Source of the DNA: a virus
Reading direction: 5' to 3' (one strand)
IMG/VR virus record: IMGVR_UViG_3300027865_000540
Span: 1-31,968 of that record
DNA length: 31,968 bases
Every line of letters starts with the position of its first letter. Position 1 is the stretch's first letter. Positions 23,912-31,180 of this stretch are shown here, piece after piece. The translations under genes and the position numbers were made by a program. The notes under the pieces are model-generated. The model was not told the DNA's origin, ran no database searches, and worked only from the letters and a program-made list of their open reading frames with translations.

Positions 23912-24655
23912 GATTTTAGTCAAGTCCTTTTCGAGAAATACGAACAGTTCGCCGAATACAAAAAAACTATTCCCAATTTTTCGCCAAAAACCACCATAAA
24001 CTCAAATATATATTAGATTTATAAAATGCCACTTTTGTCACTATGTTCCTTTATCCTTAAATTCCTCCTTGGAATTGACAATGCGGGCGGTTCGGATTGA
24101 AAGACGACCTGTAACCATTTCTCCATTATATCATCATCGGCTATATATACGCAAGCCTATTCTTAAATTCTACCAAAAATGGGGAAAAAATTGAAATTTA
24201 GATCGCTCTGAGGACGGGTAAGTAAGGTTCATTCGACAGCGGGGGGCGGGGGTGCGGTAACATTCTGGCGCGATGTCCTTCCTTTTTTTCTCTCACACCG
24301 GCCTGGCTCACCATCGATGCCAACCCACGCTTCACTCCAGCTCATGCCCTGTGTGTGCTCTACAGCCTGTGTGTGTGCATTATACGCTGTCATAGAGCGA
24401 ACACATGCTAACGTCATGCTACCACAGGGGTTACGCATCACACACCACCACTCAAGATGGAACATTGACTCGGATGCTGTGTGCTTGTTCGTCTGCTCTA
24501 CCAGGCAAGCCAGCCGTCAACACGAAGGCTTCATTCCTTAATCTTTCCCATTGTTAAGTGATTTGCACGAACGGCGTAAACACACAACCGCATCTACGCC
24601 TTGGCTTACCGTCTCTCCCTCTCTTGTGGTTAGACTGTTTCGGAGCTTTGTTCGG

Positions 24656-24849: not shown

Positions 24850-24996
24850 ATGAAAGATGTATTTATGAGAATGTTGGAAGTGGGGTTCATCCTCGGTATC
24901 CTGTACTTGGCTTCTGGTTGCCAGACTGTCAAGGGGATCACTGGCGACGGCGCTTGGCTTCTTCAGAAGGCCAGCGACAACATCACAACTAAGTAA
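24850..24996 (+). CDS. Entericidin-like small lipoprotein
   Basis: 48 residues, preceded by an excellent GGAGG ribosome-binding site at 24840-24844 and its own promoter. The N-terminus is a short lipoprotein signal peptide (VGFILGILYLASGC), with LASGC as lipobox and Cys24 as the predicted lipidated residue. After it comes QTVKGITGDG and an amphipathic tail, which matches the entericidin family pattern Cys-x-T-V-x-G. Entericidins are small bacterial membrane lipoproteins linked to toxin-antidote lysis in Escherichia coli. In a phage it could alter the host envelope, support lysis or exclude superinfection. Too short for certainty beyond the lipoprotein call. Confidence 0.75.
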   Translation: MKDVFMRMLEVGFILGILYLASGCQTVKGITGDGAWLLQKASDNITTK

Positions 24997-25070: not shown

Positions 25071-25098
25071 TTGACAAGTGTCGATGAGGGTATATCAT
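25071..25098 (+). promoter_or_regulatory. Strong sigma70-type promoter with upstream T-tracts
   Basis: TTGACA at 25071-25076 (perfect -35), 16-bp spacer, TATCAT at 25093-25098 (5 of 6). A T9-A-T7 tract immediately upstream resembles an UP element. The first ATG of the downstream frame (25097) overlaps the -10 box and so cannot be the used start; translation should begin at 25226. Confidence 0.75.
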
Positions 25099-25104
25099 GG
25101 ACGC

Positions 25105-25225
25105 TATGAGCACTGCAAGGCTATCACCGAAATCTAACCTGTTAATGACTGGCCCTGTCGGATTCTCCGCACCTTGCAGTGATGTTCTCGGATTCGATAG
25201 GGCCATCTATTTTGGAGATTACACA
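25105..25225 (+). ncRNA. Pseudoknot-forming 5' leader, candidate regulatory RNA
   Basis: From the predicted start, CACTGCAAGG (25111-25120) is perfectly complementary to CCTTGCAGTG (25172-25181). A second helix pairs 25150-25165 with 25190-25205 over 16 positions (perfect 7-bp core TGGCCCT/AGGGCCA, three G-T wobbles elsewhere). The second strand of the first helix lies inside the loop of the second, so both together form a pseudoknot. Eight bases later is GGAGA, the ribosome-binding site of the next gene; TCTCC at 25164-25168 could alternatively mask it. I could not match it to a riboswitch class from memory. DNA-level repeats (operator or recombination site) are an alternative. Confidence 0.6.
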
Positions 25226-25807
25226 ATGAACATTCACAAGAGTATTACACAAACGAGAATCGAAAGAGCAGTCAAGGCAGAGCGGCACGGCCTTGAATTA
25301 GAAAGTGAGGATATTATGAAGCCAATAAAAGAATTGGACAATGTGGTTGTGGTTGACAAAGACGAATACGCCAAACTTAAAGCCTCGCATGATGGGCTTT
25401 TCAGTGCGTTGCGAGACTTGGTTTGTGACTATACCTGCCAAGTACCAAAAGACCAGCACAACGCCAAGACGAGAGAGAAGGTCAGGCAAGCCCTTGCCGA
25501 AGCCCAAACAGAATATCCCAAACAGCTAAGCCCAGAGGATGCACATGGCATAGCTGCTACAATGCCTGAGACTGGCAGGGGAGAAATCGAAAGCGTCAAA
25601 TTATCGATATTGGCATGCGTAGAAGAGGAGCCGGTTTTGATATGTAAGTCCCTCTTATTAGATTGGGCGGATAGGTTAGATAAGGCTCTTAATCTCCCCG
25701 ACTGCCAGGGCCAAGAGCGGCCAGAGGCTAAATGTAGAAATTGCGGTAAGCTATTCTATTGCGAGGATGATTACAATGAACCAGAAGAAGAAACAAAGAA
25801 GTCCTGA
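25226..25807 (+). CDS. Unknown early protein with C-terminal zinc-binding motif
   Basis: 193 residues from the ATG at 25226, which has GGAG eight bases upstream; the in-frame ATG at 25097 is inside the promoter. The N-terminus is helical and charged (SITQTRIERAVKAERHGLEL), the middle helical (LFSALRDLVCDYTC; REKVRQALAEAQTEY), and the C-terminus has CRNCGKLFYC, a CxxC-x4-C zinc-knuckle-like end. The first gene after the structured leader, and overlaps the next gene by 32 bases. No family recognised. Confidence 0.6.
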   Translation: MNIHKSITQTRIERAVKAERHGLELESEDIMKPIKELDNVVVVDKDEYAKLKASHDGLFSALRDLVCDYTCQVPKDQHNAKTREKVRQALAEAQTEYPKQLSPEDAHGIAATMPETGRGEIESVKLSILACVEEEPVLICKSLLLDWADRLDKALNLPDCQGQERPEAKCRNCGKLFYCEDDYNEPEEETKKS

Positions 25808-28092: not shown

Positions 28093-28164
28093 ATGGCTAA
28101 AAATAAGCGAGTAGGGAAATATAATCTTTACATTCATGGAGTAAATGATTATGGAAAAAGATAA
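28093..28164 (+). CDS. Possible 23-residue peptide
   Basis: ATG at 28093 with AGGGA nine bases upstream (MAKNKRVGKYNLYIHG...), overlapping the recombinase start. No other support; it may be just leader sequence. Confidence 0.25.
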   Translation: MAKNKRVGKYNLYIHGVNDYGKR

Positions 28165-28885
28165 AAGACTTGGTGTGATTTATGCCCGTTTTTCGCCCAG
28201 GCGTAACGTTGATGAATGCGAGTCAATAGAGGCTCAAATGGACTTCTGCAGGAAATGGTGCGGGGAGAACAACATCGACATCGTAGGCGAATTTGCAGAC
28301 AAGGCTCTGTCTGGTGGCGATGAGGATCGTCCGGAGCTGTGGGCGGCCATATCGGCGCTCGAGCCTGGCTATGTGCTGGTAGTCTATCGACTCGACAGAC
28401 TGGCTCGCAGCGTTTACCTCAGCGATATTATCGAAAGGTCAATCCACGCAAAGAAAGCGACTTTCCTCAGTACAGGTGGCGAGGGAACATGGAGCGATAG
28501 CGATGAGGATTTTCTTGTTCGCAAAATACTACAGGCCCTGGCAGAGTACGAACGCAAGGTGATTTCAGCGAGAACAAGAGCAGCTATGCTCAGGCACCAG
28601 GCTAACGGCAGATTGATGGGAAGCATACCGCAGTACGGCTGGAAGCTGGACCCGGAAAACCCCAAGCGGGTTATCAAGAATCCACAGGAGCGTATAATCA
28701 TCAATCAGATAAAACGACTTCACAGCACAGGGCTATCTCTGCGCAAGATGGCTGCGAAGCTGCATGAGTTAGGTTACGAGCCGCGCAAAGTAAAAAAGAC
28801 ATTCAGAGGTAAACCCGTGTGGGTAAAGGGCAAATGGCAAGCCGGAACACTTCACGTTATATTGAAAAGGCTGAAAGGGGAATAA
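28151..28885 (+). CDS. Serine site-specific recombinase (resolvase/invertase type)
   Basis: 244 residues from the ATG at 28151 (GGAG nine bases upstream; the ATG at 28145 is too close). The N-terminal resolvase domain has VIYARFSPRRN with catalytic Ser15, YRLDRLARS near 77-85 and LAEYERKVISARTRAAM (about 135-150). A GLSLRKMAAKLHELGY region resembles a helix-turn-helix, and a short C-terminal end (about 210-244) is present. Shorter than large serine integrases (usually 450-600), so it is more like a resolvase, invertase or transposon-type enzyme. No partner site was identified. Confidence 0.88.
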   Translation: MEKDKRLGVIYARFSPRRNVDECESIEAQMDFCRKWCGENNIDIVGEFADKALSGGDEDRPELWAAISALEPGYVLVVYRLDRLARSVYLSDIIERSIHAKKATFLSTGGEGTWSDSDEDFLVRKILQALAEYERKVISARTRAAMLRHQANGRLMGSIPQYGWKLDPENPKRVIKNPQERIIINQIKRLHSTGLSLRKMAAKLHELGYEPRKVKKTFRGKPVWVKGKWQAGTLHVILKRLKGE

Positions 28886-28962: not shown

Positions 28963-29166
28963 ATGACTGAGCCACATGGACAACGAGTTAAGCCGTGTCC
29001 TTTCTGTGGTGGACCGGCTAAAGTGCATAAGCAGTTCGATGGCTTCCAAAGAGTGAGAGGCTTCTATATAAATTGCAGCAGCAAGGGCTGTCCGGTATTT
29101 TCTTCTACCAGAGTCAAAAGGGATCAGGACTTGGTGATAGAAGAATGGAATAATCGGAGCAAATAA
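28963..29166 (+). CDS. Lar-family-like zinc protein (restriction alleviation)
   Basis: 67 residues with AAAGG upstream of the ATG. The pattern KPCPFCGGPAKVHKQF, then CSSKGCPVF, then IEEWNNRSK matches small Lar/restriction-alleviation proteins, which bind zinc and modulate host restriction. Last gene of the plus operon, ending at a convergent terminator. The family is easily recognised, but the restriction-alleviation function in this phage is only inferred. Confidence 0.8.
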   Translation: MTEPHGQRVKPCPFCGGPAKVHKQFDGFQRVRGFYINCSSKGCPVFSSTRVKRDQDLVIEEWNNRSK

Positions 29167-31002: not shown

Positions 31003-31180
31003 TTTTCAATCCTTGCTGTGTTAGTTATGCCTAACAATTGTGGACAAAAAATATTTTATTTTTTTAAGTCCTTATCTTGATGTCGATTTATGCGCTGTGG
31101 CCTCTTGTGGATTAACATTTTTCCCTTGACAAAATTCCAACTTTTGGTATAATGCCCTGCATCGGGCAATAATATTCTTC
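31003..31180. other. AT-rich intergenic region with DnaA-box-like sites
   Basis: 178 bases between leftward genes. TGTGGACAA (31039-31047) and TGTGGATTA (31106-31114) each differ by one base from the DnaA box complement TGTGGATAA; between them lies a run of A/T such as ATTTTATTTTTTTAAG. GTTAG/CTAAC at about 31023-31036 is a small palindrome. Could be an origin or regulatory node; no repeats of a typical iteron type seen. Confidence 0.4.
31126..31153 (+). promoter_or_regulatory. Perfect-consensus sigma70 promoter, antisense to the operon
   Basis: TTGACA at 31126-31131, 16-bp spacer, TATAAT at 31148-31153. Immediately after it TGCCC (31153-31157) and GGGCA (31064+100, i.e. 31164-31168) form a palindrome over the predicted start, as an operator would. 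The transcript would run rightward, antisense to the genes from 31181 on. Confidence 0.75.

Follow-up and report, generated by a model that had tools for sequence, protein, structure and literature searches.

What do two inverted repeats that cross one another do when they lie between an early promoter and the first gene of an accessory operon? The question is raised by a locus near 25 kb of a 31,968-base IMG/VR virus record, which is probably a fragment; this whole stretch of DNA was analyzed and is referred to here as the window. On the − strand, the left three quarters encode structural and packaging functions, including the terminase large subunit (PHROG 5989) and the major head protein (PHROG 9953). 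From ~25 kb, a + strand accessory operon holds gene 25226, small genes without assigned function, a C5 cytosine methylase (27.2 to 28.1 kb, + strand), and a serine recombinase (28145 to 28885, + strand; 28.1 to 28.9 kb; Pfam Resolvase). The host is likely a planctomycete bacterium, because terminase relatives sit in Planctomycetota assemblies, Sedimentisphaerales included; one more distant terminase relative was found in Cerasicoccus. Adjoining the methylase/recombinase operon, a Lar family restriction-alleviation protein is encoded at 28963 to 29166 (TIGR03655; E value, 2e-11), a probable anti-restriction gene.

Promoter and crossing helices

The early promoter (25071 to 25098, + strand) consists of TTGACA (25071 to 25076), a 16-nt spacer, and TATCAT (25093 to 25098), and 11 of 12 consensus positions were matched in a consensus scan. 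The syntenic relative L008 (terminase identity, 82%; accessory genes in the same order) retains TTGAC, TGTC, GAGGGT, and TATCAT at the same spacing. Since this conserved promoter lies directly 5′ of the first helix (P1), the transcript should start just before it; the start was predicted at ~25104 to 25106, and P1 begins ~5 nt later. An operator-like palindrome covers the −35 element (25071 to 25084; TTGACaagtGTCGA) and is perfect in L008 (TTGACttctGTCAA), with the form TTGACNNNNGTC(A/G)A in both records. Allowing up to one mismatch, TTGACNNNNGTCAA was matched once in each of the two records, which is also the chance expectation, so that position alone is telling; it suggests that the early promoter may be under repressor control.

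All parts of the leader were mapped on the + strand. The P1 5′ arm (CACTGCAAGG, 25111 to 25120; inverted repeat I4) is 100% complementary to its 3′ arm (CCTTGCAGTG, 25172 to 25181), giving 10 of 10 pairs (stacking energy, −20.3 kcal/mol). The second helix (P2) joins TGGCCCTGTCGGATTC (25150 to 25165) to GGATTCGATAGGGCCA (25190 to 25205), with all 16 positions paired without interruption (13 Watson-Crick and 3 G·U pairs; −31.4 kcal/mol); the 3′ arm is followed by TCTATTTT. Loop 1 (29 nt, 25121 to 25149) spans P2 and contains a possible anti-Shine-Dalgarno segment (25123 to 25133), loop 2 (6 nt, TCCGCA, 25166 to 25171) lies between the helices, and loop 3 (8 nt, 25182 to 25189) spans P1. The knot ends 8 nt 5′ of the Shine-Dalgarno sequence of gene 25226, which lies outside it, 8 nt 5′ of ATG 25226, a normal spacing; positions 25164 to 25169 (loop 2 plus 25164 to 25165) are complementary to the Shine-Dalgarno region at 25213 to 25218. 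An earlier note on this DNA had described both inverted repeats as crossing helices flanked by a TTGACA/TATCAT promoter and a GGAG; both repeats lie where it had placed them and do cross, and the flanking elements are present at 25071 to 25098 and 25214 to 25217. Two crossing helices, as in an H-type pseudoknot, are present in the sequence, and the RNA knot is predicted. With the helices modeled as an ideal coaxial A-form stack, loop 3 would have ~29 Å to span with 48 Å reachable, loop 1 would have ~50 Å to span with 174 Å reachable (ample slack), and the loops would be long enough for both helices.

Candidate knots were scored as the summed stacking energy over every pair of crossing uninterrupted helices. 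The leader scored −51.7 kcal/mol, against a mean of −23.2 for 10,000 dinucleotide shuffles, none of which reached it (best shuffle, −38.7; the leader lies 13 kcal/mol beyond), and this bears out the suspicion in the earlier note that such helices are very unlikely by chance. The leader ranked first among 1,062 scanned segments of the record (runner-up, −42.3). Scored on the weaker helix only, it reached −20.3, against a next best of −19.6 in 239 kb of phage and prophage sequence, including related and control sequence, on both strands. The short helix on its own is not outstanding; the long helix, the crossing, and the position are convincing jointly.

The P2 arms mismatch as DNA at three places, all three of which become G-U wobbles in the + strand transcript, and the best crossing pair on the opposite strand of the same stretch reached just −35.0. 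For both reasons + strand RNA is favored, and this small sample points to a fold that would belong to the + strand RNA rather than to the DNA. Helices, strand, and promoter are features supported by computation. Because the best nested fold reached −34.7 against the helix sum of −51.7, the knot would beat it only if its entropic cost were below ~17 kcal/mol, an estimate taken outside any pseudoknot model; the nested fold by itself is unremarkable (z, −1.33).

Relatives and known RNA classes

Searches of IMG/VR, phages, plasmids, and as many as 392 Planctomycetota genomes turned up no homolog of the leader. As DNA, the leader gave just 21-nt chance matches in phages and no homolog in plasmids, and a single-sequence covariance model (R1) found none in 25 sources or in genomes from the order (161) and the phylum (392). 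In IMG/VR, the exact P1 arms with a variable gap were matched three times, each time in one and the same stretch of other contigs that is apparently protein-coding and has no P2, and the promoter pattern was matched in the contig of L008 only. Relatives found via the terminase mostly stop before the leader (L002 to L006 and L030). A strong crossing pair in L010 was considered as a distant counterpart and rejected, as it is not conserved in L011 and has the opposite orientation.

Rfam 15 returned no family above the gathering threshold on the record (riboswitches, STAXI, HDV-like ribozymes, and others), and the best matches at E values up to 10 were two irrelevant families (4.6 and 5.1), in agreement with the earlier note, which had arrived at no matching class. 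Pseudoknotted riboswitches such as preQ1-II and SAM-II have crossing helices in the 5′ untranslated region (UTR) before the Shine-Dalgarno sequence; unlike these riboswitches, the leader has no Rfam match, its Shine-Dalgarno sequence lies outside the knot, and no recognizable metabolic gene follows. HDV-like ribozymes have a short joining region (J1/2) and, after the P2 5′ arm and before the P1 3′ arm, a P3 hairpin; with only 6 nt at the P3 position and 29 nt at J1/2, the leader differs from them.

Closer likenesses were found among leader RNAs. In phages T4 and RB69, a pseudoknot 5′ of the ribosome site of gene 32 serves protein-mediated translational control (PMC535899), and the present leader shares with that operator its place in a phage mRNA leader, with the pseudoknot 5′ of the Shine-Dalgarno sequence of the controlled gene (PMC535899). 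In T4, the pseudoknot takes up ~28 nt, and UUAAA/UAAA repeats cover the ribosome site after it, whereas the leader here is ~95 nt with 10 + 16 bp; no such repeats occur in 25206 to 25225, which sets it apart from the T4 gene 32 type of operator. The product in the T4 type binds single strands, and gene 25226 has no Pfam or PHROG match to a nucleic acid binder. The mycobacterial rpsO (uS15) mRNA has a 5′ UTR pseudoknot 5′ of the initiation site, with proposed protein-mediated control of ribosome entry (PMC10931766); the position is alike, but here there is no ribosomal protein gene and no evident sequence relation. The put RNA of phage HK022 (two stem-loops, ~70 nt; PMC9378689) is likewise a structured RNA straight after a phage early promoter, but the helices here cross. 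From this sample of one, the leader is an orphan in sequence and ordinary in kind (a pseudoknotted leader RNA); a single sequence does not yet raise a general question.

Proposed role and competing readings

Our preferred reading, to which we give a probability of roughly 45%, is that an H-type pseudoknotted 5′ leader controls gene 25226 at the RNA level, through translation or mRNA stability. This role is a well-grounded conjecture rather than a finding, in that we infer the folding in cells, translation or stability as the target, and the regulator. The reading in the earlier note, translational control of the accessory operon, is partly supported: the crossing helices, the sense strand, the promoter, the lack of an Rfam class, and loops of sufficient length speak for it, and translational control itself stays a proposal. 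The first ~100 nt of the early-operon transcript would fold into the pseudoknot (P1, 10 bp; P2, 16 bp; loops, 29, 6, and 8 nt) and act in cis on gene 25226. Once folded, the leader could keep the ribosome site open, could shield the 5′ end of the transcript, and could offer a docking site for a regulator (the gene 25226 product or a different protein of phage or host), which when bound would block or permit ribosome entry, comparable to T4 gene 32 and the mycobacterial rpsO leader.

Structured leaders are known to us for phages of a few model hosts, and we know of none for phages of Planctomycetota. If real, the leader would offer an RNA element amenable to experiment that controls the early operon in a planctomycete phage.

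An ON/OFF translational switch through the loop 1 anti-Shine-Dalgarno segment was considered and dropped. In the nested fold, 25123 to 25133 pairs with 25209 to 25219 in a stem that crosses P1 and closes the Shine-Dalgarno sequence (mean openness, ~0.18). When P2 was formed and neither the P1 arms nor the loop 1 segment could pair elsewhere, openness was 0.68 to 0.81 at four of the five Shine-Dalgarno bases, and the first remained mostly paired. This was the only competing stem found, and we claim no switch because 23% of shuffled loops paired equally well with the Shine-Dalgarno region.

Gene 25226 (25226 to 25807, + strand; 193 amino acids), the first after the leader, has no relative in IMG/VR, phages, plasmids, or 392 Planctomycetota genomes. 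It has no match in Pfam, PHROG, or NCBIfam, nothing there ties it to RNA binding, and its AlphaFold model, built without an alignment, is uninformative (pLDDT, 38.5). In L008, the promoter is followed by ~30 nt and then the orthologue of gene 25767, so that leader and gene 25226 are both absent while the promoter elements and operon are retained. Because both are missing, they look like one cassette, gained or lost together, as would be expected if the leader belongs to gene 25226; the joint absence fits a leader serving that gene and equally fits one longer gene. A bolder version, which we consider improbable, is that the leader represents a novel class of regulatory RNA in phages, pseudoknotted and mobile together with its gene as a cassette; it would enter the early operon behind a promoter that stays unchanged and under repressor control, and in planctomycete phages it would act as an ON/OFF switch gated by a ligand or a protein.

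The main rival to RNA-level control of gene 25226 is that the segment is coding, with translation starting at ATG 25097 (Shine-Dalgarno GAGG, 25086 to 25089) or without a leader at ATG 25106, which coincides with the predicted transcript start. The repeats would then fall in the first 40 codons, either fortuitously or as structure embedded in coding sequence, and the leader may be partly coding; there is a T4 precedent for such overlap, the gene 32 pseudoknot lying partly over the segG reading frame (PMC535899). The in-frame extension of gene 25226 in the open reading frame list (25097 to 25225, + strand), which the earlier note does not mention, is open for 43 codons to ATG 25226, as are ~15% of random 40-codon frames. 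It outscores both other forward frames, and its composition-corrected score is above that of 98.7% of intergenic 40-codon stretches. Among stop-free stretches, however, it is nearer non-coding (19% of wrong-frame stretches score higher and 3.6% of coding stretches lower), ATG 25097 falls inside the −10 element and is ATT in L008, ATG 25226 possesses its own GGAG, and coding alone leaves the helices unexplained. With the codon score of 25106 to 25225 intermediate between coding and non-coding, and allowing for the ~15% chance of an open frame, the sequence evidence for and against coding appears about even; we judge a coding segment unlikely.

Shielding of the 5′ end and action on RNA polymerase are live alternatives, as a group somewhat less likely than coding: the leader would be a put-like antiterminator or a 5′-terminal mRNA-protecting structure of the early operon and not a translational regulator of gene 25226. 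Its structure begins ~5 nt past the predicted early-operon start, much as HK022 putL directly follows PL (PMC9378689), and mRNA is stabilized by 5′-terminal stems (references in PMC3997798). Against this, the HK022 put RNAs are described as two stem-loops with no mention of a pseudoknot (PMC9378689), and L008 lacks the leader yet shares the promoter and operon, so the operon does not require it. An attenuator, in which P2 (16 bp) and the following TCTATTTT form an intrinsic terminator hindered or allowed by P1, would account for the GC-rich stem, for the 6 T among 8 bases right after it, and for the P1 3′ arm within the P2 loop; we find it quite improbable, given a 24-nt loop, an interrupted T run, no sensor element seen, and no hit in a terminator scan that permits loops of ≤8 nt only. 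Marginally less credible still is a functionless chance arrangement. Elsewhere (L004, L010, and L013) there are crossing pairs whose weaker helix reaches −19.4 to −19.6, and the L010 pair is lost in its relative L011, but no shuffle in 10,000 matched the leader, and it is located exactly between promoter and ribosome site.

Least probable is a DNA-level element, either operator arms or a recombination site of the serine recombinase encoded in the same operon (28145 to 28885). The enzyme (230 to 247 amino acids across this record and L011) is probably the integrase of this phage family; its L011 counterpart (L011:3836-4528) lies at the prophage edge and adjoins host genes (an SSF symporter and a tRNA-Thr editing domain). 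For that reason the attachment site is expected at the recombinase, 3 kb from the leader, and it is the recombinase rather than the leader region that borders the host in L011. The P2 mismatches, all G-U on one strand, and the lack of further repeat copies in the record beyond chance also speak against it. The earlier note would have abandoned a regulatory leader had the repeats proved to be a recombination site, an outcome that the L011 junction and the absence of extra copies disfavor.

Neighboring features

Directly 5′ of the leader promoter, a small open reading frame (24850 to 24996) encodes a lipoprotein-like product (MKDVFMRMLEVGFILGILYLASGCQTVKGITGDG...) reminiscent of entericidin; it has no match in Pfam, PHROG, or NCBIfam and is missing from L008. 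A G-rich non-coding stretch 5′ of the terminase genes (24212 to 24298; GGGTAAGTAAGGT...CGGGGGGCGGGGGTGCGGTAACAT) is conserved at ~70 to 79% in L003, L004, L008, and L030, and its location hints at a cos or pac packaging site. The contigs L002, L003, L004, L006, and L030 all stop ~0.3 to 1.8 kb 5′ of the terminase, just short of the leader, and these shared ends suggest a hypervariable region.

The two planctomycete prophages L010 and L011 share ~1.1 kb of largely non-coding sequence 5′ of the terminase (L010:1301-2400 and L011:8749-9856; 82% identity), the first part of which holds a near-identical promoter (TTGAC...GGGGGTGTATAAT); we read it as a long conserved leader or packaging region. In the window, a perfect-consensus promoter (TTGACA-16-TATAAT; 31126 to 31170, + strand), with a hairpin (GCCCTGCATCGGGC) immediately after it, points antisense into − strand open reading frames.
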